A stretch of 64,000 nucleotides of DNA from Acidobacteriota bacterium (lineage in GTDB: Bacteria; Actinomycetota; Actinomycetes; Actinomycetales; Microbacteriaceae), in NCBI GenBank assembly GCA_019351995.1, contig JABBOD010000011.1, forward strand, positions 1 through 64,000, in the 5' to 3' direction. Positions within the stretch are counted from its first letter, which is position 1. Each line of letters begins with the position of its first letter. The translations under genes and the position numbers were made by a program. Under the pieces are notes generated by a model. That model was not told where the DNA came from. It saw nothing but the letters and a program-made list of their open reading frames with translations, and did no database searches. This document shows positions 2,474-48,235 of this stretch, in pieces.

Positions 2474-3964
2474 TCAGAGACTCAGGCGGAACCTCTCCAG
2501 GCGCGCCAAGGTGGATTCCTTGTCGAGGATCTGCATGGACTCGAACAGGGGCGGACTGATCCGCCTCCCGCTCAACGCGGTGCGCAGCGGGCCGAAGGCC
2601 ACGCGCGGTTTGAGACCCGCCCCCTCGATGAGAGCACCGCGCAGGGCCGACTCGACGGCCGCGGTCGAAAAGTCCTCAAGCGGCTTGAGGGCAGCCTGTG
2701 CGGCATCCAGAACGAGCTTCGCCTCGTCCACATTCGCCGGCAGCGCGTCGGCCTCGTAGACGATCGCGTCGTCGTCGAGGAAGAAGAACTCCAGCAGGCC
2801 GCGCACCTCGCCGAGCACGGCGATACGCTCCTGCACGAGAGGCGCAGCCTCGCGCAGAATGGCCTTCTCGGTGGGAGTCGGCGGGTCGCTCACCACACCG
2901 GAGAGGTAGGGCAGGATGCGCTCGCCGAAGTCGTCGGCAGCCAGCATCCGGATGTGATCGCCGTTGATCGAGTCGGCCTTCTTCTGGTCGAATGATGCCG
3001 GATTCGGGTTCACGTCGACGATGTCGAAGGCGGCGACGAACTCCTCGCGGGTGAAGATGTCCCGATCCGGTGCGATGCTCCAGCCGAGCAGCGCGAGGTA
3101 GTTGAGCAGGCCCTCCGGGATGAAACCACGGTCGCGATGATGGAAGAGGTTCGATTCCGGATCGCGCTTGGAGAGCTTCTTCGTCCCCTCGCCGCGGACG
3201 AGCGGAAGATGCCCGAAACGCGGCACGAAATCCGTCACGCCGAGCTCGATCAAGGCCAGATAGAGGGCGATCTGACGCGGCGTACTCGACAGCAGGTCCT
3301 CACCGCGGAGCACATGCGTGACACCCATCAGGGCATCATCGACAGGGTTCACGAAGGTGTACAGCGGGGCGCCGTTCGGCCGGACCACGACGAAGTCGGT
3401 GAAGCTCCCCGCCGGGAAGACGATCGGTCCGCGAACCAGATCGTCGAAGCCCAAATCGGCGTCGGGGACACGCAGGCGCATGGCCGGCTCGCGACCTTCG
3501 GCGCGGTACGCGGCGCGCTGCTGGGCCGTCAGCTCGCGCTCGAAGTTGTCGTACCCCTGCTTCGGATCGCGACCGTTCGCGACGTTCCGCGCCTCCATCT
3601 CGTCCGGGGTGACATAGCTCTCGTAGAGCAGTCCGGCATCCACCATGCGGGCGATCAGGTCCCGGTAGATCTGGGTGCGCTGCGACTGCCGGTACGGCTC
3701 GTTCGGGCCGCCCTTGTCGACGCCCTCGTCCCAGTCGAGTCCGAGCCAGCCGAGAGCGTCGAGCAGCTGCAGATAGCTTTCTTCGCTGTCCCGCGCGGCG
3801 TCGGTGTCTTCGATGCGGAAGATCATCTTGCCGCCCGTGTGCCGGGCGTACGCCCAGTTGAACATGGCGGTCCGCACCAACCCGACGTGGGGCGTGCCGG
3901 TCGGGGACGGGCAGAAACGAACGCGGACATCGGTGCCGGTGGCGGTGCTGAAGGGGATGGACAT
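2474..3964 (-). CDS. gltX: Glutamyl-tRNA synthetase
   Basis: Class I aminoacyl-tRNA synthetase (496 residues) that loads glutamate on tRNA-Glu and, in organisms without GlnRS, also on tRNA-Gln. The HIGH-type motif is [11 protein letters not shown] near the N-terminus, and the KMSKS-type motif is [10 protein letters not shown] in the middle, followed by the helical anticodon-binding domain. Length matches the bacterial family. The start at 3964 ([10 protein letters not shown]) is preferred over the 16-residue upstream extension because it begins just before the conserved first strand and has a TAGGCT hexamer 8 nt upstream, as in other leaderless-type starts of this window. tRNA-Gln(CTG) lies about 120 bp downstream on the same strand. 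Confidence 0.97.
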
Positions 3965-3972
3965 CGGTGTCG

Positions 3973-3978
3973 AGCCTA
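3973..3978 (-). promoter_or_regulatory. Leaderless-type -10 of gltX (TAGGCT)
   Basis: TAGGCT lies 8 nt before the ATG at 3964 and no Shine-Dalgarno sequence fits in between. The same TAGGCTCGA string precedes the starts at 6841 and 55470. Confidence 0.55.
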
Positions 3979-3998
3979 CCGGCGCGATGGTCGCCGGT

Positions 3999-4853
3999 TC
4001 AGACCAGCGCAAGCACGGCCGACGCCCCCAGGGCGAGCGCGACGCCGACGATCTGCAGCCAGCTCAGCCGCTCCTTCACAATCACGAACGCGAGGATGAC
4101 GGTGCCAAGCGGGTAGAGGGCGTTGAGCACACCCATCACGGCGAGCTCCCCCAGATGCAGTCCGATCACCAACAGGACGTTGCCGCCGGCGAGAAGTACG
4201 CCGGCGAGGATCGACTGCACCACGGCCGTGCGGTCACGGAACCCGCGGAGCTCCCCCGTGCCTCGGCGCACCCGGTTGACCAGCAGCGCGACCGTGTAGA
4301 TGAGTGAGGCGACGATCAGGTCGATCCAGAGCGGCACGAGCCCCGAGTCACGGGGGGTGCGACCGATCGCGATGATGTAGCCCGCGTAGCCGAGCCCTGC
4401 GATCGAACCGTAGACGATCGCCCGCGGCGTCAGGCGCGCGGCATCGCGCTGGCGCGGAATCGCGAGCAGCACCGCCGCCACGACGACGGCGACCAGCGCC
4501 AGGTACCCGGGCGGTGCGATCCGCTCCCCCAGGGCGATGCCGACGATGGCGGGAACAACGGCGTAGATCATCGCGACACCGGGCGACACAACACTCATCG
4601 GACCGATCGCGAGGCTGGTGAAGAACGCCCAGGTGCCGATCCCGCCCCCGACACCCGCCACGAGTCCCAGAACGACCGCCGAGGTCGACCAGTGCTGCTG
4701 GCTCGAGAGCGTGGCGATGGTCGCGATGATCAGCGCGGCGATCTGGCTGATGAAGCTGACGACCAGAGCGGTGATGCGCCGTGATGCGAGCCCGCCGAAG
4801 AAATCGGAGGCCCCGTAGATGAGCGCGCTGGTCAGCCCGAGAAACGCGATCAT
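3999..4853 (-). CDS. EamA/DMT-family membrane transporter
   Basis: A 284-residue integral membrane protein with about ten hydrophobic segments arranged as two EamA-like repeats, beginning [21 protein letters not shown]. This is the drug/metabolite transporter superfamily; the substrate cannot be inferred. The start at 4853 puts the first residue directly before transmembrane segment 1, whereas the longer frame to 4952 adds a hydrophilic tail with no family precedent. It lies 34 bp upstream of gltX on the same strand and may contribute readthrough, but gltX has its own promoter-like hexamer. Confidence 0.85.
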
Positions 4854-4974
4854 GCTCCTAGTGAACCGGATGCCGGCGACCACCGGTGACCGGAACCACC
4901 GACTCGAGTCACCGACCCAGGGATCGGCCCCGTCGGCATCCGGGGGCAGCACGGCAACGGTCTCGGGCGAGCCC

Positions 4975-5985
4975 TCAGCGAGGAAGCGAGATCAGGAGCG
5001 CCAACGCCACGATGATCGTCCAACTCAGGGCGCCGGCGAGCAGCGCGCGCGGTCCCGAACGGAGGAGCCGCTCGAGCCGGAGCGACGCGCCGATCGCGAA
5101 CAGCGCTGCCGCCAAGAGGGCCGACTGGATGCCGTCAGCGATCGTGAGGACGGCATCCGGAACCGGGAGGAGAGTGCGGACCAGGACCAACCCGAGAAAG
5201 CCGAGGATGAAGAGGGGCACGATCGGCGGACGAGACGTTGCCACGGCATCACCGGCCGGCATTCGCGCAGCGCGCCGACGCGTCGAGATCGAGGTGATCG
5301 CCACCATGGGCGCGAGCATGAGCACTCGGGTCAGCTTGACCACGATCGCCACCGACAGGGCGGCAGTACCAGCGGTTCCCGCCGTCGCCACGACCTGGCC
5401 GACATCGTGCACGCTGGCCCCCACCCAGTGCCCGAATGTCGCTGTCGAGAGACCCAGCGGCACGGCCAGAGCGGGCAAGATGGCGATCGCCGCCGTGCCG
5501 TACAGCGTGACGAGCGCGGTCGGAGTGCCGGTGTCCCGCGGGTCCGTGCCGCGTGCCGCGCTCATCGCGCCCACCGCACTCACCCCGCAGATCGAGAAGC
5601 CGGCGGCGAGCATCACGGGCTCGTCACCTGGCAATTTGAGCGCGGTCGCGATCCCCCAGGTGATCACGAAGCTGACGCCCACCAGTGCGATGATCTCGAG
5701 CACCGACAGCCATCCGAGATGCGCGATGTCGGTCAGGCTCAGCTTGAGACCCAGCACGACGATCCCGAGGCGAAGCAGACGTCGGGATGCCTGCGCGAGT
5801 CCGGGCTTGAGCACCCCGTCGAGCGCCGCACGCGCGGGCTTCACGGAACCGACAACCACCCCGAGCACGATCGACGCGGTCAACCAGGGCACCACCGGAA
5901 ACAGCGCGTGGATGCCGAACCCCGCCGCCGCTCCGATCGCCGCAACCGTAATCCCCGGCAGCCACCCGAATCGGCGACCGCTCAC
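4975..5985 (-). CDS. YeiH/UPF0324-family putative anion (sulfate) exporter
   Basis: A 336-residue polytopic membrane protein of the conserved YeiH family (Cons_hypoth698), often annotated as a putative sulfate exporter. About ten transmembrane segments are visible. The family-like stretches LGIVVLGLKLSL, GFSICGVSAVGAMS and the glycine-rich SVHDVGQVVATA are present. The start is a GTG at 5985 with no clear ribosome-binding site, so the exact N-terminus is uncertain. It lies 52 bp downstream of the FAH-family gene on the same strand. No sulfur gene is adjacent to support substrate assignment. Confidence 0.85.
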   Translation of the reverse strand: MSGRRFGWLPGITVAAIGAAAGFGIHALFPVVPWLTASIVLGVVVGSVKPARAALDGVLKPGLAQASRRLLRLGIVVLGLKLSLTDIAHLGWLSVLEIIALVGVSFVITWGIATALKLPGDEPVMLAAGFSICGVSAVGAMSAARGTDPRDTGTPTALVTLYGTAAIAILPALAVPLGLSTATFGHWVGASVHDVGQVVATAGTAGTAALSVAIVVKLTRVLMLAPMVAITSISTRRRAARMPAGDAVATSRPPIVPLFILGFLGLVLVRTLLPVPDAVLTIADGIQSALLAAALFAIGASLRLERLLRSGPRALLAGALSWTIIVALALLISLPR

Positions 5986-6037
5986 CGCGCCGACACCGGG
6001 ACTGCACGCACCGCACGCAACCGCACCGCCGCGACGA

Positions 6038-6841
6038 TCACTCCGCGCCGTCTCGGTGACGCGCCGGGTTGCTCAGCGTCCCGATGCCCTCGATGGTGCA
6101 CTCGATGGTCTGCCCGTGCACGAATCCGCCAAGACCCGATGGGGTTCCCGTGAAGATCACATCGCCGGGAAGCATCGTCCAGACGTCGCTCACGTAGGCG
6201 ATCAGTTCGGGAATGCCGTGAATCAGGTCCTTGGTGTTGCCGTGTCGGCGCGGCTCCCCGTCCACCGTGCTCGAGATCTCGAGGTTGCTCGGGTCGAGTT
6301 CGGTCTCGATCCACGGGCCGAGTGGTGCGAAGGTGTCATAGCCCTTGGCCCGCGCCCACTGGCCGTCGGCGAACATCTGGTCCCGAGCCGAGACGTCGTT
6401 TCCGATGGTGTAGCCGAAGATGTAGTCGGCCCACCGCTCGGCCGGCACCTGCTTGGCGATCTTGCCGATGACGATGACCAGCTCGGACTCGTGGGTGATG
6501 CGCCCCTCGACCGGCGGGATCTGGATGAAGTCGCCGGGGCCGACGACCGCCGTGTTCGGTTTCAGGAAGATCAACGGGTTGGCGGGGGCATCGACATTCG
6601 CGGCCATGTCCTTGGCGTGCTCGGCGTAGTTGAGGCCCACGCAGACCACCTTCGAACGCGGGATGACGGGTGCGAGCAACTTCGCGCTCGCGAGGGGAAC
6701 GCGCTCCCCCGTCGGCTGGTATCCGGCGAACATCGGATCTCCGGCGAGAACGACGAGCTGCTGCTCGCCCGTCTCCTCGTCGAGGTCGACGATGGCGAAC
6801 CGGGGGTCGTCACCTGGCGTGCTGAACCGGGCTACCTTCAC
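6038..6841 (-). CDS. Fumarylacetoacetate hydrolase family protein
   Basis: A 267-residue FAH-superfamily enzyme. These use a divalent metal for C-C bond hydrolysis, decarboxylation or isomerisation of beta-keto or enol acids. The metal-binding HESELVIVIGK stretch and the conserved GYTIGNDVSARD and FTGTPSGLG motifs are present. Length fits the short FAH class (2-hydroxyhepta-2,4-dienedioate isomerase / acylpyruvase types) rather than true tyrosine-pathway FAH. The start is a GTG at 6841 with TAGGCT exactly 7 nt upstream. It lies 46 bp downstream of ilvE but probably has its own promoter. The substrate is unknown; it may be oxaloacetate or acylpyruvate metabolite repair. Confidence 0.9.
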   Translation of the reverse strand: MKVARFSTPGDDPRFAIVDLDEETGEQQLVVLAGDPMFAGYQPTGERVPLASAKLLAPVIPRSKVVCVGLNYAEHAKDMAANVDAPANPLIFLKPNTAVVGPGDFIQIPPVEGRITHESELVIVIGKIAKQVPAERWADYIFGYTIGNDVSARDQMFADGQWARAKGYDTFAPLGPWIETELDPSNLEISSTVDGEPRRHGNTKDLIHGIPELIAYVSDVWTMLPGDVIFTGTPSGLGGFVHGQTIECTIEGIGTLSNPARHRDGAE

Positions 6842-37596: not shown

Positions 37597-39333
37597 TCAG
37601 GCGAGCGCGGGCACCAGCCCCAGCGCCCCCGCTCGGCGCGTGCGACGGATCGCGAGGTTCGCGACGAGCACGCTCGCGAGACCGAACAACAGCAGAGCGA
37701 CTGCCGAGCCGATGGCGGTGCCCGCGCTTGCGCCGGTCACGATCTGCTGCATGCCGGTCGTCGCCCAGGTCAGCGGAAGGAAGGGACTGATCCACTGGAA
37801 CGGGGCGGACAGCAGCTGCACCGGGAAGACGCCGATGACCGCGATCTGCAAGGCGAGCAGGAAGAGCGAGATCAGCAGACCCGCGCGACCGAACCCGATC
37901 GTGAGCAGATAGTGGAACGCCGTGAGTGCTGCCGCCGTGATGAGCGAGAAGACCAGGGTCGCGGGAAACAGGCTCCAGCTGACCCCGACCCCGGTGTGCA
38001 GGAGAAGCACCAAGAGCAGCGCCTGAACGCCCGTGACCGCGCCGGCTCGCAGGAGCACGCTGCCGACCACCCGCGACGACGACGCCGTGGAGGCGAGCAC
38101 CCGCCGCGAGACCGGACGCATCACCAGGAACACGGCGAGCGCCCCGATCCACAACCCGAGCGGGAGGTAGAGGCTGGAGACCGCCTGCGCCAGCTTCGAA
38201 ATGCTGTGCGCGGTGGTGACCGAGAGACCAACCGGGTCGGACGCGACGCCCGCGGCTTTCGCCGCGGCTGCGGCGTCGGAGCTCGGGACCTGTTTCGCGC
38301 CGTCACTCAGTCCGGACGAGAGGGCGGTGGCGCCCGAGGCGAGCTGGGAGCTCCCACTGCTCAGCGATTGGGCGCCGCCGAGGAGGGATGGGCCGCTGGC
38401 GGCCAGGGTCTTGGCTCCCGACGCGCTTTGCGCGATGCCGGACTGGATGCCGCTGATTCCGCTTGCCGTCGACGAACTGAGGGTGCTCCCCTGGCTCGCC
38501 GTACTGGCAAGCTGCGCCGCGATCCCCTGCACCCGCGCCATCAGCGCGGCATCGTTCGGTGACGCAGCCAGCGCGGCAGTTGCCGCGGTGAGGGCAGTCG
38601 ACAACTGCGAGACGCCACCGGTGTACGACGCGACGCCGGAACTCAGCTGGTCAAGGGATGCCGCACCACCACTCAACTTTGTGAGCCCCGAGCTGAGCGT
38701 GCTCACCCCGGAGGTGTAGCTCGAGAGACCGCTGCTCAAGCTGGATGCCCCTGACGACAGCGACGCGGCTCCGGAGGCCAAGCCGTTCGCGCCGTCTGCG
38801 GCTTTCGACAGGGAGGCGCCGAGAGTCCCGAGACTCGCGTAGACACCCGAGATGTACTGCTTGGTGATCGCGCTGCCGAAGGTGCGCACCATGCCATCGC
38901 CGAGCGACTGCGCGACCGAGCCGGCCAGGTAGGAGTGGGCGTCATCCGTGCGGATCGAGAGTTGCGCCTGCGTGGGTGACGTGCCCTGCAGCGACAACAC
39001 CGACTTCGAGAAGTCCTTCGGGATGGTCAGGATCGCGTAGACCTGTCCCGCAGCCAGGGCCTTTTTGGCGTCGGCGGCATTGCTGAGGCTCCAGTCCATT
39101 CCTGGCGACTTCGTGCCCGTCAGCTGGGTCACGAGCTGGCGTCCGGCCAGCACATAGTTGGTCGTGCCGTCGGCATTGTGGGTGATGATCGCCTGGTCGG
39201 CGTTCACGATCGCGGCCGGGATGCGGTCGATGCCGGCCTTGGTGTCACCAAGCGACGCGACGTAGAGCCCGACGAAGGCAAGCGGGATCAGCGCAACTGC
39301 CGCGATCGCGGCGAGGCGGAGACGGTTCTTCAT
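37597..39333 (-). CDS. YhgE/Pip-type membrane protein (ABC-2-like)
   Basis: A 578-residue protein. It has an N-terminal membrane anchor (ALIPLAFVGLYVASL), a large extracytoplasmic region of about 350 residues rich in Ser/Gly/Ala short repeats (SSLSSGLSSYTSGVSTLSSG), then five or six C-terminal transmembrane segments. This is the YhgE/Pip layout, whose C-terminus resembles ABC-2 permeases. Its start overlaps the MMPL gene stop by 4 nt (ATGA), so the two are made together. Function is inferred as part of an envelope export system. Family members have been linked to phage reception and to type VII-like surface proteins. Confidence 0.88.
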   Translation of the reverse strand: MKNRLRLAAIAAVALIPLAFVGLYVASLGDTKAGIDRIPAAIVNADQAIITHNADGTTNYVLAGRQLVTQLTGTKSPGMDWSLSNAADAKKALAAGQVYAILTIPKDFSKSVLSLQGTSPTQAQLSIRTDDAHSYLAGSVAQSLGDGMVRTFGSAITKQYISGVYASLGTLGASLSKAADGANGLASGAASLSSGASSLSSGLSSYTSGVSTLSSGLTKLSGGAASLDQLSSGVASYTGGVSQLSTALTAATAALAASPNDAALMARVQGIAAQLASTASQGSTLSSSTASGISGIQSGIAQSASGAKTLAASGPSLLGGAQSLSSGSSQLASGATALSSGLSDGAKQVPSSDAAAAAKAAGVASDPVGLSVTTAHSISKLAQAVSSLYLPLGLWIGALAVFLVMRPVSRRVLASTASSSRVVGSVLLRAGAVTGVQALLLVLLLHTGVGVSWSLFPATLVFSLITAAALTAFHYLLTIGFGRAGLLISLFLLALQIAVIGVFPVQLLSAPFQWISPFLPLTWATTGMQQIVTGASAGTAIGSAVALLLFGLASVLVANLAIRRTRRAGALGLVPALA

Positions 39334-42275
39334 CGCAGGGTACCTTCCGTGACGAGCGTGACGTCGAGCGTGACGTCGAGAGCATGGATGCGCGGCGGGG
39401 TGGCCTCCGCGACCCGGTGGAGGCCGGGCATCCCCACGATGACCGTGGTACCGGAGGGCGCGAGCCGATCCAGCGCGAGCAGGAATGCGCGAGCGTCGAG
39501 CGGATCGGAGAACGGATCGAGCGACTCGAGCAGCACGACCGGCGTCCGCTCACTGAGGGCGATGACGGCAACGGCGACCGCGCGTTCGAGTTGGGGAAGC
39601 GACTCGATGGCGGTGGATGCGTCGACGGGAACGGTCGAGCGGCCGAGTCCCTGCAGCGCACCGGACACGCGCCCCGCACGGGTTCTGGCGCGTCGTGCGG
39701 CGACCGGTGCGAGGTACCACGGCCGAGTGAATCGCAGGTGCTCTTCGAGCAGCTCCCCGACGGTGACCGTCACGCCAGCACGACCTGGGCCGGCGAGGTC
39801 GGCGATGGCGACAAGACGCGCGACCTTCGCCGCGTCGGAGGGCAGCGGATGCCCGCCCACCTGCGCGCGCCCACTCCGAGGATCGAGACGGCCGGCCACC
39901 GCGGCCGCGACCAGCCGTCGCGCGACCGGATCTCCCTCGATGAGGGCGATCGAGCCGGACGCGAGGTGCAACGAGACGGGCCCGACCGTCACGGCGCTTG
40001 CCCCGGAACCAGCGGCGACCACCAGCTCGTCGAGCGAGACCTCCTCGCCGGCCGCTTTGCGATCGAGAGCCCAGGCGGTTGCCTCCTGGTGAGAGCGCAA
40101 GCCCTCCCCCTCGATGTCCACGTTCGGCAGGATGCGGTTCAGCCACCGCGGGACATACCAGGCCGCCCGCCCGGCAAGGGCCATCACGGCGGGCACCAGC
40201 GTCATCCGGATCAGGAAGGCATCAACGAACACCCCGACCGCGAGACCGAGCGCAATGACCTTGATGACGGCGGCGCCCTCAGGAACGAACGCGCCGAACA
40301 CGAAGAACATGATCAGGGCGGCGGCGGTGACAACGCGAGCAGCCCCCGAGAATCCGGTCACGATCGAGGCGCGCGCCACCCGGTTGCGTTCGCGAGCGGA
40401 CGCGCCCGCCGGGAGCTTGGCGACCCCGTGCACGTATGCCTCGCGCATCCCGGAGACCAGGAACACCTCGTAGTCCATGGCGAGGCCGAACAGGATCGCC
40501 ATCAGAAGGATTGGCATGAAACTCAAAATCGGACCGGGAACGACACCGAGGGCCTGTGCCCCCCACCCCCACTGGAAGACGGCGACCACCGCGCCGAAGG
40601 CGGCGAACACCGAGAGCAGATAGCCGAGAGCCGCCTTGACCGGCACCAGGAGCGAGCGGAAGACGACCATCAACAACACGACCGAGAGGCCGACCACGAT
40701 GAGGCCGAAGGGAAGCAGTGCCGAGTCGAGCTGTGACGACACGTCGATCGCCACCGCCGTCGCCCCGGTCACCGCAATCGGTGTGTGGTACTTCGCGGCG
40801 ATCGAGGGCTCGAGTGCGCGGATGCGCTCGACGAGTTGGGTCGTCTTCGGATCGCTGGGTCCGGTCGTCGGGATCACCTGGATGATCGCCGTGTCGAGCG
40901 TCGCGTTGGGCGTACCCGCGCTCACCGACTTGACGCCCTGCAAGCCGGCGATCTGCTCGCCGATCTTCTTCATGTCGGCGACGAAGGTGGTGGACTGCGT
41001 GATGTCGACGGTGATGATCAGCGCGCCGTTGCGGCCAGGGCCGAACTCCTGGCTGACGATGTCGTATGCCTGGCGTGCGGTGGTGTCTTTCGGCTGCGAT
41101 CCCCCGTCCGGCAGGGCCAGGGCGAGGCTGAACGCCGGGATCGACACCACGCCGAGGATCCCGATGACCGCGATCACGAAGACCACGGGAGCCTTGAGCA
41201 CGAGGGTGACCCAGCGCTGGCCCAGCGTCGCACGCGCGGCGCGGGGCGCCTTGGCGGTCGCCGCGCGAACCTTCGGGATCAGCCGGGTTCCGAGCATCCC
41301 CATCACAGCCGGCAGCAGCGTCGTCGCCGCGAGCATCGCCATGAGCACGGCGATGGCGGCCGCGATTCCCATCAGACCCAGGAAGGGGATGCCGACGATG
41401 AGCAGTCCGACCAGAGCGATCATGACGGTCACGCCGGCGAACACGACCGAGCTTCCCGCGGTGGCGACGGCGGTCGCGGCGGATTCTGCCGGATCCATCC
41501 CGGCCGCCAGTTGCGATCGATGTCTGCTCAAAATGAAGAGCGCATAGTCGATGCCGACGGCCAGCCCGATCATGACGGCGAGCAGCGGAGCGGTCGATGA
41601 AATGGTGACGAAGGACGCCATGGTGAGCACCACGCCCATCGAGACGGCAAGCGCGATGATGGCGGACAGCAGCGGGAGGCCGGCGGCGATCAAGGAGCCC
41701 AGCGCGACGATCAGGATGATCGCGGCGAACAGCACTCCGAGCCCTTCGGTCCACGAGATGCCGACCGTCACATTCTGGAAGACCTGGCCGCCGAAGGCGA
41801 CGGTGAGCCCCGCATCCTTCAACGGTTGGGTGGCGTTCTCGACGGCCGTCAACTGAGCGGCTGTGACCTTCTCGGAGGAGGTCGTGAACTGCACTGTGAT
41901 GATCGCGGTCGAACCGTTGTCGCTGACCGCGGATACGGCGTACTGGCTGAACGGCGAGATGGCAGCCTCGACGCCGGTCACGTCGCCCACCGCGGTGACG
42001 ACTTTCTCGATGGTGGCCTTCTGCGTGGCGATGTTGCCGGAGCCGTCCTTCACGACGATCTGCGCGCTCGCCCCCGCGGTCTGCGGGAAGACGGCACCCA
42101 GCAGGTCGATCGCCTTCTGCGATTCGGTGCCGGGGATCGCGTAGGAGTCCTGCAGCTGGCCGCCGAGCGCGACACCGCCGGCAAGCGCGCCAGCGGCGAT
42201 CAGCACCCAGGCGATGAGCACCCGGACGCCATGCCGGAAGGCGAAGCGTCCGAGTCGGTAGAGCAGCGTGGCCAT
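39330..42275 (-). CDS. MMPL/RND transporter with C-terminal degenerate ABC-ATPase-like domain
   Basis: A 981-residue protein. Residues 1-725 are an MMPL-type RND transporter: an N-terminal TM segment, an extracytoplasmic loop, six TMs including VMIGLAVGIDYALFILSRHRSQL, a second loop and a second TM bundle with LLMAILFGLAMDYEVFLVSGMREA. Residues about 750-970 align by eye with an ABC ATPase whose key residues are lost: IALIEGDPVARRLVAAAVAG sits where Walker A would be but has no GKS/T; LPQLERAVAVAVIAL is at the signature; PVVLLESLD is at Walker B. The start at 42275 is the first ATG inside the family-like N-terminus. It is 13 bp after tetR and overlaps the YhgE gene. Substrate unknown; lipid or drug export is likely. 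Confidence 0.9.
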   Translation of the reverse strand: MATLLYRLGRFAFRHGVRVLIAWVLIAAGALAGGVALGGQLQDSYAIPGTESQKAIDLLGAVFPQTAGASAQIVVKDGSGNIATQKATIEKVVTAVGDVTGVEAAISPFSQYAVSAVSDNGSTAIITVQFTTSSEKVTAAQLTAVENATQPLKDAGLTVAFGGQVFQNVTVGISWTEGLGVLFAAIILIVALGSLIAAGLPLLSAIIALAVSMGVVLTMASFVTISSTAPLLAVMIGLAVGIDYALFILSRHRSQLAAGMDPAESAATAVATAGSSVVFAGVTVMIALVGLLIVGIPFLGLMGIAAAIAVLMAMLAATTLLPAVMGMLGTRLIPKVRAATAKAPRAARATLGQRWVTLVLKAPVVFVIAVIGILGVVSIPAFSLALALPDGGSQPKDTTARQAYDIVSQEFGPGRNGALIITVDITQSTTFVADMKKIGEQIAGLQGVKSVSAGTPNATLDTAIIQVIPTTGPSDPKTTQLVERIRALEPSIAAKYHTPIAVTGATAVAIDVSSQLDSALLPFGLIVVGLSVVLLMVVFRSLLVPVKAALGYLLSVFAAFGAVVAVFQWGWGAQALGVVPGPILSFMPILLMAILFGLAMDYEVFLVSGMREAYVHGVAKLPAGASARERNRVARASIVTGFSGAARVVTAAALIMFFVFGAFVPEGAAVIKVIALGLAVGVFVDAFLIRMTLVPAVMALAGRAAWYVPRWLNRILPNVDIEGEGLRSHQEATAWALDRKAAGEEVSLDELVVAAGSGASAVTVGPVSLHLASGSIALIEGDPVARRLVAAAVAGRLDPRSGRAQVGGHPLPSDAAKVARLVAIADLAGPGRAGVTVTVGELLEEHLRFTRPWYLAPVAARRARTRAGRVSGALQGLGRSTVPVDASTAIESLPQLERAVAVAVIALSERTPVVLLESLDPFSDPLDARAFLLALDRLAPSGTTVIVGMPGLHRVAEATPPRIHALDVTLDVTLVTEGTLR

Positions 42276-42288
42276 GCGTTCCCCAGAA

Positions 42289-42873
42289 TCAGTCGGAGGT
42301 GGTTGGTGCGGATGCGAGCGCGGGAGTGACCGCGAGAAGGTCGCCGAGGACCGTGATGAGGGCGGCGCGCATGGCGTCGAGATCCTGGACGGGCATGGCC
42401 AACGGCGCACCCGCGAGGAGGTAGGCGGCACCACCGAGGGCGACGCCGAAGCGAACCTTCTCGTCGAGCGATCCGACGTTCTCCTCCAGGTAGCCGGACA
42501 CCAGTTGGATTTCGGCGTTCGCCCGCCGAACGATCGGCACGTCTTCGAGGGTGGTCGCCTGGTTCACGAAGATCGACGCGGCCGAGCGGTGCTGCAGGAG
42601 AAAATCAACGAACTGGCGGAGAAACTCGGCCCGCTGCTCGCCGCCCGTGCGCAGGGCCGCCAGTCGAGCCTTCCCCAGGATCCCGTCGAGCTGGTCGATG
42701 GCGGGTGCGAGCGCGGACTCCAGCAGCACCTCTTTCGACGCGAAGTGGTACAGAACGGTCGCCTTGGAGACACCGGCACGATCGGCGATCTGCTGGATCG
42801 AGGTCGCGTGGTAGCCCGCGGAGGCGAACTCCTCGAGGGCGACGCGACGCAGCTCGTCAGCAGTGGTGGTCAT
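42289..42873 (-). CDS. TetR-family repressor of the MMPL-YhgE operon
   Basis: A 194-residue TetR-type regulator. The N-terminal HTH is EFASAGYHATSIQQIADRAGVSKATVLYHFASKEVLL. The C-terminal ligand domain is of the common actinobacterial type. It is first in an operon with the MMPL and YhgE genes. The ATG at 42873 has TACCGT exactly 7 nt upstream, and two perfect dyads lie immediately beyond, so autoregulation is very likely. Confidence 0.93.
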   Translation of the reverse strand: MTTTADELRRVALEEFASAGYHATSIQQIADRAGVSKATVLYHFASKEVLLESALAPAIDQLDGILGKARLAALRTGGEQRAEFLRQFVDFLLQHRSAASIFVNQATTLEDVPIVRRANAEIQLVSGYLEENVGSLDEKVRFGVALGGAAYLLAGAPLAMPVQDLDAMRAALITVLGDLLAVTPALASAPTTSD

Positions 42874-42888: not shown

Positions 42889-42921
42889 TGACCGCTCGGT
42901 CAGGTGTTGACCGATCGGTCA
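42889..42921. promoter_or_regulatory. Twin TetR operators
   Basis: TGACCGCTCGGTCA (42889-42902) and TGACCGATCGGTCA (42908-42921) are perfect dyads with centres 19 bp apart, covering the promoter region of tetR. They are the probable binding sites of the adjacent TetR protein. Confidence 0.8.
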
Positions 42922-43033: not shown

Positions 43034-43219
43034 GTGCGCAAGTTCCTGTTCAGCACCAGCGTTCTCAGTGCCGTCTTCAGCGGTGTGAGCGTCGCACGCA
43101 CCACCAAGAGCGGCCCGCGTGACTGGCGTCTCATCCTGCAGTGGGTCATCTGGGGCGCGTCGGTCGCGATCGCGGTCGGCACGGTAATTGAGAAATCGAA
43201 CGACGCGGAGGACTACTAG
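43034..43219 (+). CDS. Small membrane-associated protein
   Basis: A 61-residue protein beginning with GTG (VRKFLFSTSVLSAVFSGVSV), preceded by GGGAGGATCC, a strong ribosome-binding site. One clear hydrophobic segment (LQWVIWGASVAIAVGTVI) lies near the C-terminus, and the N-terminal part is moderately hydrophobic. No family is recognised. It is divergent from tetR. Its stop codon overlaps the FadR-type gene stop as CTAG. Confidence 0.7.
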   Translation: MRKFLFSTSVLSAVFSGVSVARTTKSGPRDWRLILQWVIWGASVAIAVGTVIEKSNDAEDY

Positions 43220-43986
43220 CCGAGGAAGCCGCGGAGCAGCGCGCGCGAGCCGTCCAGGTGCTCGCTCATCGCGGCGGCCGCCGCTTCGGCGTCTCCGGCC
43301 AGGATCGCGAGGACGATCGCCTCGTGCTGGCGGTTCGAATGGTTGATGTTGCGCGGAAGGAGCGGGAAACTGTCAAGCAGTTCGTTGACTCGACTGCGAT
43401 TCTCGGCCATCAGCGTCACGAGTGACGGCACGCCGACGACCTCCGCGATCGTGAGGTGCAATCGCGAGTCGAGCCGTCGATAGTCGGTGGTCGTGGATGC
43501 CGCGACCTCGCCGAGTCGTGTCCACAGGGCCGCGCGTTGCGCCGCATCGAGGCTCCGGCTGGCGGCCGATCGTGCCGCACCCACTTCGAGGATGTCGCGC
43601 AGCCCCAGAAGGTCGTCGAGCTCCGCTCTGGTGGGCAGCGTTGCGGGCGCGTCGGGGGGAAGCGGAAGCGGGTCGCTCAGGAATGTTCCGCCGTAGCGGC
43701 CGCGCCGCGACACGAGGTAGCCGGCATCCGCCAGTTCTTTGATCGCCTCCCGCACGGTGTCACGGCTGACGGAGAAGCGCATGGCGAGTTCCCGCTCGGC
43801 CGGCAACGCCTCACCCGGCGCAACAACCCCGAGTCGAATCGTCTGCATCAGGCGCGCCACGGTGTCTTCGAGCGAGTTGCCGGTGCGCACCGGTCGATAG
43901 ACCGCGGCGTCGACCAAACTCTCCGGCGCCGCACCGGTTTCGACCTGCTCACCCGTCGGAACGGGGGAATCAGAGCGGGGTGACAT
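43216..43986 (-). CDS. FadR/GntR-family regulator of the amine-catabolism operon
   Basis: A 256-residue FadR-subfamily regulator. The winged HTH is VARLMQTIRLGVVAPGEALPAERELAMRFSVSRDTVREAIKEL, and the FCD ligand domain has the expected helical pattern with LHLTIAEVVG and QHEAIVLAILAGDAEAA. The start at 43986 lies inside the last codons of the SDR gene (17-nt overlap), making it the last gene of the glutamine-synthetase-like operon. It probably senses a pathway amine or acid. Confidence 0.9.
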   Translation of the reverse strand: MSPRSDSPVPTGEQVETGAAPESLVDAAVYRPVRTGNSLEDTVARLMQTIRLGVVAPGEALPAERELAMRFSVSRDTVREAIKELADAGYLVSRRGRYGGTFLSDPLPLPPDAPATLPTRAELDDLLGLRDILEVGAARSAASRSLDAAQRAALWTRLGEVAASTTTDYRRLDSRLHLTIAEVVGVPSLVTLMAENRSRVNELLDSFPLLPRNINHSNRQHEAIVLAILAGDAEAAAAAMSEHLDGSRALLRGFLG

Positions 43987-44761
43987 ACGCCGCGCTGATC
44001 CCGCCATCCACCAGGAAGGTCGAGGCCGTGATGAAGCTCGCGTCATCACTGGCGAGGAACGCGACGGCGGCGGCGAGTTCCTCCGGCTCGGCGAAACGGC
44101 CGACCGGCACGTGAATGAGGCGCCGCGCCGCGCGCTCGGGGTCCTTCGCGAACAGTTCCTTCAGCAGCGGCGTGTTCACCGGACCCGGGCAGAGTGCGTT
44201 GACCCGGATGCCTTGACGCGCAAACTGGACCCCCAACTCTCGCGTCATCGCCAGCACGCCGCCCTTGGAGGCCGTATAGGAGATCTGCGAGGTGGCCGAA
44301 CCGAGCACCGCCACGAACGAGGCGGTGTTGATGATCGAGCCGCGGCCGGCCGGCACCATGTGGCGCAGCGCGGCGCGCGAGCACAGGTAGACGCTCGTCA
44401 GGTTGACGAGCTGCACGCGGTCCCAGGCATCGAGCTCGGTGGTCTCGATCGAGTCGTCGTCGGCGGGCGAGATCCCCGCGTTATTGAAGGCGATGTCGAC
44501 GGAACCGTAGGTGGAGGCCGCGGTGTCGAACAGGGCATCCACCTGTCCCTTATCGGTCACATCCACGTTCAGATAGAGGCCGCCGACTTCGGCAGCCGCC
44601 GCCTCACCGCGCTCCGCGTCGACGACGTCAGCGATCACGACCTTCGCGCCTTCGGCCGCGAAGCGTTTCGCGGTGGCGAAGCCGATGCCGCCGGTGCCGC
44701 CGGTAATGACAGCGACCTTGCCGGCGAGGCGCTGGGTGAGGTCGATCTTGGTGATGGGCAT
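43970..44761 (-). CDS. Short-chain dehydrogenase/reductase
   Basis: Classical SDR, 263 residues. The cofactor-binding TGGTGGIGFATAKRF, NNAGISPADD, the catalytic Ser in NTASFVAVLG, and YTASKGG with Tyr and Lys are all present. Asp at the end of beta-2 (VIADVVD) suggests NAD. It lies in the operon after the aldehyde dehydrogenase, so it may oxidise a hydroxyl-bearing intermediate of amine or aminoalcohol breakdown. Confidence 0.9.
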   Translation of the reverse strand: MPITKIDLTQRLAGKVAVITGGTGGIGFATAKRFAAEGAKVVIADVVDAERGEAAAAEVGGLYLNVDVTDKGQVDALFDTAASTYGSVDIAFNNAGISPADDDSIETTELDAWDRVQLVNLTSVYLCSRAALRHMVPAGRGSIINTASFVAVLGSATSQISYTASKGGVLAMTRELGVQFARQGIRVNALCPGPVNTPLLKELFAKDPERAARRLIHVPVGRFAEPEELAAAVAFLASDDASFITASTFLVDGGISAAYVTPL

Positions 44762-44779
44762 GGTGCTCCTGAGTTGTGG

Positions 44780-46135
44780 CTAGCTGGCGAAGAAGACGTT
44801 CTTGGTGTCGGTGAAGGCGAGAGCGGCATCCGGACCGAGTTCGCGGCCGAGGCCGCTCTGCTTGGCCCCGCCGAACGGGGTCGTGTAGCGGACAGAGGAG
44901 TGCGAGTTGACCGAGAGCGTGCCCGACTCGATCGCCCGGGAGACGCGGATGGCACGGCCGAGATCGCGGGTCCAGATCGACCCGGACAGGCCGTAGACGC
45001 TGTCGTTCGCGAGGCGGATGGCGTCGGCCTCGTCGTCGAACGGGAGCACGCTGACCACCGGTCCGAAGATCTCCTCGACCGCGACGCGGTCGGTGCGCGT
45101 GGGGAGCAGCACGGTCGGCGGCATCCAATAACCGGGGCCGCTGGGGGCGGAGCCGCGGAACGCCACGGGTGTGCCGTCGTCCAGGAACGACTCCACCGCC
45201 TCGAAGTGCGCCCGCGACACGAGCGGACCCATCTCGGTCGACTCCTCCGCCGGCGCCCCGACCTTCACGGCCTTCACGGCCGGCTCAAGCAGCTCAAGAA
45301 AACGGTCGAAGACGCGGCGCTCCACGAGGATGCGGCTGCGCGCGCAGCAATCCTGCCCGGCGTTATCGAACACGGCACCCGGAGCCGTGGCGGCGGCGCG
45401 CTCGAGATCCGAGTCGGCGAACACGACGTTGGCGCTCTTGCCGCCGAGTTCGAGGGTCACCGGCTTGACCTGCGCCGCGCATCCTGCCGCCACCTGCTTC
45501 CCGACCGCCGTCGACCCGGTGAAGACCACCTTGCGCACCCGCTCGTGCGTGACGAACCGCTCCCCGACGACCGCGCCGCGGCCGGGCAGAACCTGAAAGA
45601 GACCATCGGGCAGACCGGATTCGAGGGCGAGCTCACCGAGCCGGATCGCGGTCAGCGGGGTCCACTCGGCGGGCTTCAGCAGCACCGCGTTGCCCGCCGC
45701 GAGCGCCGGAGCGAATCCCCAACTCGCGATCGTCATCGGGAAGTTCCACGGCACGATGATGCCGACAACGCCGAGCGGCTCGTGGAAGGTGACGTCGATG
45801 CCTCCCGCAACGGGGATCTGCTGGCCGATCATGCGCTCGGGCGCTCCCGCGTAGTACTCGAGCACGTCGCGCACGTGGCCCGCTTCCCAGCGAGCCGAGC
45901 CGATCGGATGCCCGGAGTTCAGCACCTCCAGCGCGGCGAGTTCCTCGACCGCGCCGTCAACGGCGGCGGCAAATCGGCGCAGTGCCCGCGCGCGATCGGC
46001 GGGGGCCAGCGCCGCCCACCTGACCTGTGCCGCGACGGCGCGCTCCACCGCCGTATCGACCTCCTCGAGCGAGGTGTGCGCGACCTCGCGGATGACGGTC
46101 TCGTCGGCGGGATTGATCAGGATCGTGGCACTCAT
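44780..46135 (-). CDS. Aldehyde dehydrogenase (gamma-glutamyl-aminoaldehyde type)
   Basis: NAD(P)-dependent aldehyde dehydrogenase, 451 residues. VPWNFPMTIASWGFAPALAAGNAVLLKPAEWTP, the catalytic Glu in VTLELGGKSANVVF, the nucleophile Cys in NAGQDCCARSRI and the C-terminal FGGAKQSGLGRE are present. The family is PuuC/KauB-like. The operon context with GS-like and PuuD-like proteins suggests oxidation of a gamma-glutamylated aminoaldehyde. Its start overlaps the PuuD-like stop by 4 nt. Confidence 0.93.
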   Translation of the reverse strand: MSATILINPADETVIREVAHTSLEEVDTAVERAVAAQVRWAALAPADRARALRRFAAAVDGAVEELAALEVLNSGHPIGSARWEAGHVRDVLEYYAGAPERMIGQQIPVAGGIDVTFHEPLGVVGIIVPWNFPMTIASWGFAPALAAGNAVLLKPAEWTPLTAIRLGELALESGLPDGLFQVLPGRGAVVGERFVTHERVRKVVFTGSTAVGKQVAAGCAAQVKPVTLELGGKSANVVFADSDLERAAATAPGAVFDNAGQDCCARSRILVERRVFDRFLELLEPAVKAVKVGAPAEESTEMGPLVSRAHFEAVESFLDDGTPVAFRGSAPSGPGYWMPPTVLLPTRTDRVAVEEIFGPVVSVLPFDDEADAIRLANDSVYGLSGSIWTRDLGRAIRVSRAIESGTLSVNSHSSVRYTTPFGGAKQSGLGRELGPDAALAFTDTKNVFFAS

Positions 46136-46890
46136 TCCCGCACCCCTCGGTAGCTTCTGGCCGCGTCGACCAGGCTGTCAAACAGGCGGACGTCATCGGC
46201 GGCATCTTGCTCGGGATGCCACTGCACCCCGACGCCGAATGGCACACCGTCGAGCTCGACCGCCTGCACGATTCCGCCGCTCGAGCGGGCGGTGACGAGC
46301 AGCCCGTCACCGAGTGAGTCGATGGCCTGGTGGTGGTAGCTCTGCACCTCATGGGGTCCGGCGCCGATGATCGTGGCGATCTTCGATCCGTCGATCACCT
46401 GGATCTCGTTGACCTTGAACACCCCGTTCACGCCCGTATAGCGGTCGTCACCGACCACCTCGGGCAGGTGCTGGTGCAGGGTGCCTCCGCGGTTGACATT
46501 GAGCACCTGGATGCCACGGCAGATCGCGAGGAACGGCACCTCGGCGTCGATCGCGGCGGTGAGCAGCGCGTCATCCCAGTCGTCGCGGAGCCGACTCGGA
46601 GCATCCGCCATCGGATGCGCGTCCGCCCCGTAGCGGCTCGCTTCGACGTCGAGTCCGCCGGAGATGATCAGCCCGTCGAGCCGGGCCATGACCTGTTCGG
46701 CGACCCCGCCCTCCAGCGGCTGCGGTGGGAGCAGGACCGGGATGCCGCCGGCCTTCTCGACCGCCGCGAAGTACACCTCGGGCAGGAATGCGGCCTGCAC
46801 ATCCCACACCCCGGTCTGCGCGCGCTGCAGATAGGTGGTGAGCCCGATCATCGGGCGCGGGCGCCGGGAGTCAGAGTCGCTCGAAGCCAC
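46132..46890 (-). CDS. Class I glutamine amidotransferase-like hydrolase (PuuD type)
   Basis: A 252-residue peptidase C26 protein with the Cys nucleophile in PFLAICRGIQVLNV, catalytic His in VQWHPEQD and its Glu partner. The family includes PuuD, which cleaves gamma-glutamyl-GABA. The GTG start at 46890 lies inside the GS-like gene (20-nt overlap). The role is inferred as releasing glutamate from gamma-glutamyl intermediates. Confidence 0.92.
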   Translation of the reverse strand: MASSDSDSRRPRPMIGLTTYLQRAQTGVWDVQAAFLPEVYFAAVEKAGGIPVLLPPQPLEGGVAEQVMARLDGLIISGGLDVEASRYGADAHPMADAPSRLRDDWDDALLTAAIDAEVPFLAICRGIQVLNVNRGGTLHQHLPEVVGDDRYTGVNGVFKVNEIQVIDGSKIATIIGAGPHEVQSYHHQAIDSLGDGLLVTARSSGGIVQAVELDGVPFGVGVQWHPEQDAADDVRLFDSLVDAARSYRGVRE

Positions 46891-48235
46891 GGATCCGCTC
46901 CCAATCGGTCACAACCGCGTCGTACGCCTTCAACTCGACGCGCGCGTTGTTCAGGTAGTGCTCGACGACCGCCGGCCCGAAGGCCTCCTGCGCGACCGCC
47001 GAGTTCGCGAAGAGTTCGGCCGCGTCGCGCAGGGTGGTCGGCACCCGCGGCGCGTCGGAGCCGTAGGCGTTGCCCACGAAGATCGGCTCCAGCTTGAGCT
47101 CGTTCTCGATGCCGTAGAGGCCACCGGCGATGAGCGCGGCCACGGCGAGGTACTGGTTGACGTCCCCGCCGGGAACCCGGTTCTCGACGCGGAGACCCTG
47201 CCCGTGGCCGACCACTCGCAACGCGCACGTGCGGTTGTCGAGCCCCCAGGCGATCGCCGTCGGCGCAAAGCTGCCCTCGACAAAGCGCTTGTATGAGTTG
47301 ATGTTGGGGGCGAAGAACAGGCTGAGTTCCCGAGTGGTGGCGATCAGGCCGGCGATCCAGTGCTCCATCAGTTTCGAGAATCCGTGCGGGCCATCCCCCG
47401 CCATCACCGCGTCACCGTCGGTGCCGCGCAGCGAGAGATGGATGTGGCAGCTGTTGCCTTCGCGTTCGTTGAACTTGGCCATGAAGGTGAGGGCCTGCCC
47501 GTGCTGGTCGGCGATCTCCTTGGCACCGTTCTTGTAGATCGCGTGGTTGTCGCAGGTGGCGAGCGCCTCCGTGTAGCGGAACGCGATCTCCTGTTGGCCG
47601 AGGTTGCACTCGCCTTTGACAGCCTCGCAGTACATGCCCGCGCCGTCCATACCGTTGCGGATGTCGCGCAGCAGCGGCTCCATCCGCGTGGACGCCAGCA
47701 GCGCGTAGTCGATGTTGTAGTCGCTGGCCGGGGTGAGGCCGTCATATTTCTTGGCCCAGGCATCCCGGTAGCTGTTCTCGAACACGATGAACTCGAGTTC
47801 GGTGCCGACGAACGGCACGAGTCCCCGCTCGGCCAGGCGCGCGATCTGCGTCTTCAGGATCTCGCGCGGCGACTGCGGCACCAGAGAGCCGTCCATCGTG
47901 GTCAGATCGGCCATCACCATCGCCGTACCCGGAAGCCACGGGATCACCCGCAGGGTGTCGAGGTCCGGCTTCAACACCATGTCGCCGTACCCGGTCTCCC
48001 AGCTCGAGATGGCGTAGCCGTCGACCGTGTTCATCTCGACGTCGACGGCGAGCAGGTAGTTGCAGGCCTCCGCACCGTGCGCGGCGATGTCCTCCTGGAA
48101 GAGGCGGGCGGAGGTGCGTTTGCCGACGAGTCGCCCCTGCATGTCGCAGAACGCGACGATCACCGTGTCGATGTCGCGCTTCTCGATCAGAACACCGAGT
48201 TCGTCGATCGTGAGGTTCCCACTCTGGACGGCCAT
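46871..48235 (-). CDS. Glutamine synthetase-like gamma-glutamyl-amine ligase
   Basis: A 454-residue GS-family protein (PuuA/GlnA3-GlnA4 type rather than GlnA). Its metal-binding core has EFIVFENSY, NLGQQEIAFRY and HIHLSLRG, and NINSYKRFVEGSFAPTAIAWG and NRVPGGDVNQYLAVAAL are the usual late motifs. It lacks the adenylylation Tyr loop of GlnA. It probably attaches glutamate to an amine such as a polyamine or ethanolamine. It heads a five-gene operon. The ATG has a strong AAGGAGG about 6 nt upstream. Confidence 0.92.
   Translation of the reverse strand: MAVQSGNLTIDELGVLIEKRDIDTVIVAFCDMQGRLVGKRTSARLFQEDIAAHGAEACNYLLAVDVEMNTVDGYAISSWETGYGDMVLKPDLDTLRVIPWLPGTAMVMADLTTMDGSLVPQSPREILKTQIARLAERGLVPFVGTELEFIVFENSYRDAWAKKYDGLTPASDYNIDYALLASTRMEPLLRDIRNGMDGAGMYCEAVKGECNLGQQEIAFRYTEALATCDNHAIYKNGAKEIADQHGQALTFMAKFNEREGNSCHIHLSLRGTDGDAVMAGDGPHGFSKLMEHWIAGLIATTRELSLFFAPNINSYKRFVEGSFAPTAIAWGLDNRTCALRVVGHGQGLRVENRVPGGDVNQYLAVAALIAGGLYGIENELKLEPIFVGNAYGSDAPRVPTTLRDAAELFANSAVAQEAFGPAVVEHYLNNARVELKAYDAVVTDWERIRGFERL

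Follow-up and report, generated by a model that had tools for sequence, protein, structure and literature searches.

Introduction

In Firmicutes, YhgE/Pip proteins act as receptors for phages, and they are related to part of the type VIIb secretion system; to our knowledge no power source of YhgE has been established so far. An ABC-2-type membrane domain is the usual docking partner of an ABC nucleotide-binding domain (NBD). The closest described parallel to the locus analyzed here is the export of the mycobacterial lipid PDIM, for which MmpL7 and DrrABC have been suggested to act as one assembly, so that an MMPL protein works with an ABC-2-like ABC transporter (PMC11539658). In that system, however, MmpL7 and DrrABC are encoded by separate genes, MmpL7 is said to have no proton relay, and DrrA keeps the Walker A, the Walker B and the H-loop (PMC11539658). 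Our locus is the mirror image, with a pump that carries the relay motifs and an NBD that appears to be dead, and its YhgE is neither DrrB nor DrrC. The neighboring gene belongs to the same family as YhgE/Pip and EsaA of Firmicutes (phage infection protein, type VIIb secretion), and the paper on these proteins names no ABC partner (PMC4999554), whereas in the class of Actinobacteria studied here such a partner accompanies nearly every YhgE. In Saccharopolyspora hirsuta, F1721_04135 and F1721_04140, a YhgE and an MMPL with neighboring locus tags, are both raised by cholesterol (PMC9782250).

Results

Organization of the locus

The window, which is the whole stretch of 64,000 nucleotides that was analyzed, contains an MMPL gene with a long C-terminal tail, followed by yhgE and preceded by a gene for a TetR-type regulator (Table 1). 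The first-pass annotation had placed the fusion gene at 39330-42275, which is correct, and the gene lies on the minus strand; the peptides that it quoted, EGDPVARR, VAGRLDPRSGRAQVGG, LPQLERAVAVAVIAL and PVVLLESLD, are all found within residues 726-981. The end of the fusion gene and the start of yhgE overlap in the sequence ATGA, and the list of open reading frames shows no second NBD in the operon. Positions 43216-48235 hold a cluster that resembles amine or polyamine degradation, in which a GntR regulator, an SDR dehydrogenase, an aldehyde dehydrogenase, a glutamine amidotransferase-like and a glutamine-synthetase-like gene were recognized by eye.

Table 1. Features of the tetR, MMPL::pseudo-NBD and yhgE locus; positions are those of the window.
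Feature	Position	Strand	Basis or remark
MMPL::pseudo-NBD fusion gene	39330..42275	-	981 aa; ATG at 42275, stop ends at 39330 (ORF)
MMPL pump core, residues 1-725	40101..42275	-	PF03176, E 5e-77; GIDYAL and AMDYEV proton-relay-type motifs
Conserved linker LPNVDIEGEGL, residues 716-726	40098..40130	-	Alignment
Pseudo-NBD tail, residues 726-981 (256 aa)	39333..40100	-	Profile comparisons
Walker A position GDPVARR, residues 781-787	39915..39935	-	RR replaces K-S/T; R in 30/31 and 28/31 tails
Signature-loop position LPQLER, residues 893-898	39582..39599	-	Stands for LSGGQ
Walker B position VVLLE, residues 913-917	39525..39539	-	Glu; 28/31 relatives carry Asp
yhgE, YhgE/Pip family, ABC-2-type membrane domain	37597..39333	-	TIGR03061, TIGR03062, PF12698
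TetR-type regulator gene	42289..42873	-	ORF; TetR assigned by eye from sequence
Palindrome TGACCGATCGGTCA, putative TetR operator 1, upstream of tetR	42908..42921		Exact palindrome
Palindrome TGACCGCTCGGTCA, putative TetR operator 2	42889..42902		Palindrome scan

The MMPL pump core

The pump core matches PF03176 with 259.5 bits (cut-off 20.5) in two stretches, which correspond to the two MMPL repeats. The Asp-Tyr pairs of GIDYAL and AMDYEV are present in the window protein, and both pairs are kept in 65 of the 70 fusions that were collected. By analogy with MmpL3 we take these pairs to be a proton relay and, because both are kept, the proton gradient is likely to be the power source of this MMPL. 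The core and the Asp-Tyr pairs are common to MmpL3 and other unfused MMPL proteins of PF03176; however, the unfused homologues, at 701-783 aa, stop soon after the core and lack a nearby YhgE, while the window MMPL is fused and adjoins YhgE. No YhgE was found near any of the 10 unfused homologues checked in named genomes, and within this genome neither of the two yhgE genes adjoins any MMPL gene besides the fusion.

The tail is related to ABC nucleotide-binding domains

A plain search misses the ABC likeness of the tail, because the tail alone matches nothing in Pfam, NCBIfam or the PDB sequences. Tail matches were found in 69 of the 149 related genomes searched, and an alignment of 31 tails (A1) was used for the motif counts given below and for a profile against PDB. 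This profile matched ABC NBDs (EcfA, MsbA, TAP1 and others) with E-values down to 3.4e-6, in a collinear alignment that covers positions 19-229 of 250, from before the Walker A to past the Walker B, and places LPxLERA under LSGGQ and VVxLDxxD under the Walker B. A more divergent set of tails (A2), which takes in three stand-alone NBDs, reached an E-value of 7.4e-17. Comparison of the tails with 35 canonical NBDs from related genomes by hhalign gave 97.1% (E 5e-11), against 0.1% for reversed tails and 0.1 to 1.4% across all controls (reversed tails with NBDs, MMPL with NBDs, and tails with MMPL or YhgE). Furthermore, a model of stand-alone YhgE-linked NBDs built without the window sequence scored the window tail at 93.5 bits (E 1.3e-27), and the best of 2000 shuffles at 11.1 bits. 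Chance resemblance to an ABC NBD is ruled out by the reversed and shuffled controls. The model of canonical NBDs did not detect the single window tail, and so the link between the tail and ABC proteins runs through the family. A phylum-wide tally with the tail profile returned 359 of 396 genomes, a figure in which ordinary ABC ATPases are mixed in at weak E-values and which is not a count of the family. Structure prediction of the tail, proposed in the first-pass annotation and made from its single sequence without an alignment, gave a pLDDT of 40, too low to be informative about the fold.

On these profile comparisons the window tail is almost certainly a degenerate ABC nucleotide-binding domain. 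The first-pass annotation had proposed a degenerate ABC-ATPase-like domain fused to MMPL from the letters alone; the A1 profile, hhalign and the stand-alone model agree with it, and it is further backed by stand-alone and fused relatives that retain a Walker A.

Motif loss and selection

The window tail lacks a Walker A of the form GxxxxGK[ST], the LSGGQ signature, the Walker B Asp and catalytic Glu, and the H-loop His. The Lys-Ser/Thr of the Walker A is changed to Arg-Arg in nearly all of the 31 tails (Table 1), and the consensus at the signature loop is LPxLER (Leu 31/31, Arg 27/31). The Walker B Asp is kept by most relatives; the window has E917 at this position, followed by S918. The catalytic Glu is absent from the relatives as well, and TTVIVGMP is found where TxxxVTHD with the H-loop His is expected. 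Across the 133 members of the wider NBD family none carries an LSGGQ-type signature ([LIVMFY]SGG[QEM]), and the Walker A position is occupied by Lys in only 10 and by Arg, the commonest replacement, in 84. The window tail is very probably unable to hydrolyze ATP, judging from its motifs.

The alignment of the 31 tails contains invariant positions. Measured against the nearest relative (L050), the tail has a dN/dS of 0.18 and is under purifying selection; the values for the pump core and YhgE are 0.16 and 0.23. Random decay of the tail is ruled out by conservation and dN/dS. The earlier description of each catalytic motif as worn holds for the loss of the motifs; it does not hold for wear at random, since the Walker A site carries a conserved Arg-Arg, and this change is a conserved rewrite.

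The YhgE partner and gene linkage

The yhgE product matches TIGR03061 (131.3 bits, cut-off 96.15), TIGR03062 (127.7 bits, cut-off 102.2) and PF12698 (ABC2_membrane_3, E 1.3e-19). A search for other MMPL-ABC fusions adjoining yhgE, suggested by the first-pass annotation, was fruitful: in the set of 70 fusions, most of which had been picked through the tail rather than through yhgE, yhgE is the next gene in the same orientation in 69, and the remaining one lies at a contig end. From the opposite side, of 55 yhgE genes picked by their own profile alone, with the NBD ignored, 51 are immediately preceded by an NBD of this family, which stands alone in 34 and is fused to MMPL in 17. One of the four exceptions (L210) is preceded directly by an MMPL gene that matches the tail weakly. 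The occurrence of the NBD upstream of yhgE either as a separate gene or as a fusion is a Rosetta-stone pattern.

Evolutionary rates correlate alike for all pairs (partial r of 0.41 for tail and YhgE, 0.48 for core and YhgE, and 0.40 for core and tail), which indicates a co-inherited unit but does not point specifically to contact between tail and YhgE. Rate correlation as a sign of such contact was dropped, the three values being similar.

The NBD partner seems to be limited to full-length YhgE. YhgE-like proteins of 432-554 aa with weak matches (L220-L225) have no adjacent NBD relative. A tandem pair of YhgE-like genes from the family of the window (L182, 1021-6461) likewise has no NBD relative nearby.

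Stand-alone and fused forms across the class

The fusion recurs within the family and order of the window and beyond them in further orders of the class, and yhgE genes directly preceded by stand-alone members of the same NBD family are found in other families and orders. In Rhodococcus erythropolis R138, the plasmid pLRE138 encodes a stand-alone NBD (WP_029257019.1) that adjoins a YhgE (WP_029257018.1). It shares the NBD family and the YhgE neighbor with the window; however, it is a separate gene with no MMPL, and PF00005 still matches it (6.8e-6). The NCBI label of this protein is only "ATP-binding cassette domain-containing protein".

Some stand-alone forms keep the Walker A, and the relatives span a series from GPSGSGKT through GxxGSGRT to none. 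A few fused forms with a Walker A also occur in other families of the class: L167, L218 and L219 carry GPSGSGKT, L227 carries GPPGTGKT and L229 carries GSDGAGKT, and Pfam ABC_tran matches the L167 tail at 3.5e-16. ATP use may therefore be possible in parts of the family, to judge by the retained Walker A. In a tree, the YhgE-linked NBDs split from the canonical ABC NBDs with full SH-aLRT support, the deeper branching order being uncertain with long branches, and the fused and stand-alone states are explained by just three changes.

A second branch of fused tails (L073-L089 and L102-L109) consists of shorter forms without the middle of the NBD, between the Q-loop and the signature; their fusion to MMPL is kept and yhgE is the next gene. 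The second yhgE of the window's own genome lies in ORF 4170-6134 of another stretch (L170, G000:C28:71000-81000) and is preceded by a stand-alone NBD relative of 228 aa (ORF 3679-4365), more decayed than the window tail, which has no match in Pfam or NCBIfam and clusters in the tree with comparable short NBDs from the same family.

Regulation

Within the window, TGACCGATCGGTCA and TGACCGCTCGGTCA are the only palindrome sites with zero to one mismatch. Among 76 fused loci, 27 carry a like palindrome 588-756 bases upstream of MMPL, and almost all of these belong to the branch of the window; a tetR homologue is present upstream in the same orientation in 35 of 70 fused loci. This organization points to an autoregulated operon of tetR, mmpL::pseudo-NBD and yhgE, in which TetR would bind the putative twin operator.

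Discussion

The preferred reading of the pseudo-NBD is a docking or coupling domain, because an NBD that is very probably incapable of hydrolysis is still conserved beside an ABC-2-type partner. By ancestry it is kin to the dedicated NBD that elsewhere in the class is usually encoded by a separate gene directly upstream of yhgE; having lost the P-loop Lys, the signature, the catalytic Glu and the H-loop His and retained its conserved core, it would most likely still dock on the cytoplasmic face of the ABC-2-like membrane domain of YhgE. Docking would yoke the MMPL pump to YhgE, and the proton gradient acting through MMPL, not ATP at the pseudo-NBD, would drive export. The substrate may be a hydrophobic compound or a lipid, which YhgE, with its long extracellular repeat region, would help to pass outward. 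The cholesterol response of S. hirsuta fits a hydrophobic substrate, the fusion state of its MMPL aside. The operon would be released when TetR leaves the twin operator.

We hold the whole proposal, a pseudo-NBD that couples a proton-driven MMPL pump to an ABC-2-like YhgE, to be evenly balanced between right and wrong. For the coupling mechanism taken alone, which is drawn from gene order, the chances likewise seem equal. The first-pass annotation had suggested that the tail couples MMPL to YhgE; gene order fits this very well, and the contact part is an inference, gene order being equally compatible with co-regulation without contact.

The same tight linkage and overlapping genes would suit a domain that only aids the folding, insertion and co-placement of MMPL and YhgE and has no role in the transport cycle. 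None of the present results discriminates between such an assembly domain and coupling, and we consider assembly alone quite unlikely. The tail could also act as a regulatory sensor whose Arg-rich former P-loop binds an anionic ligand, either a lipid headgroup or a nucleotide that is not hydrolyzed, and gates MMPL without touching YhgE. The conserved Arg-Arg at the former phosphate-binding loop is what such a sensor would need, but the idea leaves unexplained the link of this NBD family to yhgE where MMPL is absent, and it seems unlikely.

An unconventional working ATPase, in which Arg stands for Lys, ATP is bound and perhaps a second NBD completes the site to power YhgE, would agree with the graded Walker A series of the relatives and with the Walker B Asp in 28 of the 31 tails. 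Against it, the window tail has neither that Asp nor any of the other catalytic motifs and its operon has no second NBD, which makes this reading very improbable. That the tail is a functionless remnant might be supposed from the loss of motifs and from the branch whose shorter tails lack the middle of the domain; however, its dN/dS lies near that of the pump core, invariant positions persist over 31 sequences and the tail is kept in every fused operon seen, so that a vestige is scarcely credible.

Docking or coupling thus being the preferred reading, it can be carried further, at the price of a rather doubtful composite: the dead ABC domain on MMPL would be a clutch through which the proton gradient drives YhgE, the YhgE-linked NBDs would form a distinct, LSGGQ-less branch of ABC proteins, and a proton motor would have replaced an ATP motor in the lineage of the window.

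The literature searched, with most subscription journals outside its scope, holds no description of the fusion or of YhgE-linked NBDs, and the MMPL-NBD-yhgE arrangement is apparently a widespread, undescribed variant made from known parts. An NBD-like partner for nearly every YhgE in the class, often fused to MMPL, allows a guess at how YhgE is energized. The series from an intact to a missing Walker A offers natural material for the study of NBD roles beyond ATP hydrolysis and, if the coupling is true, a proton pump would have taken over an ABC-type membrane subunit.
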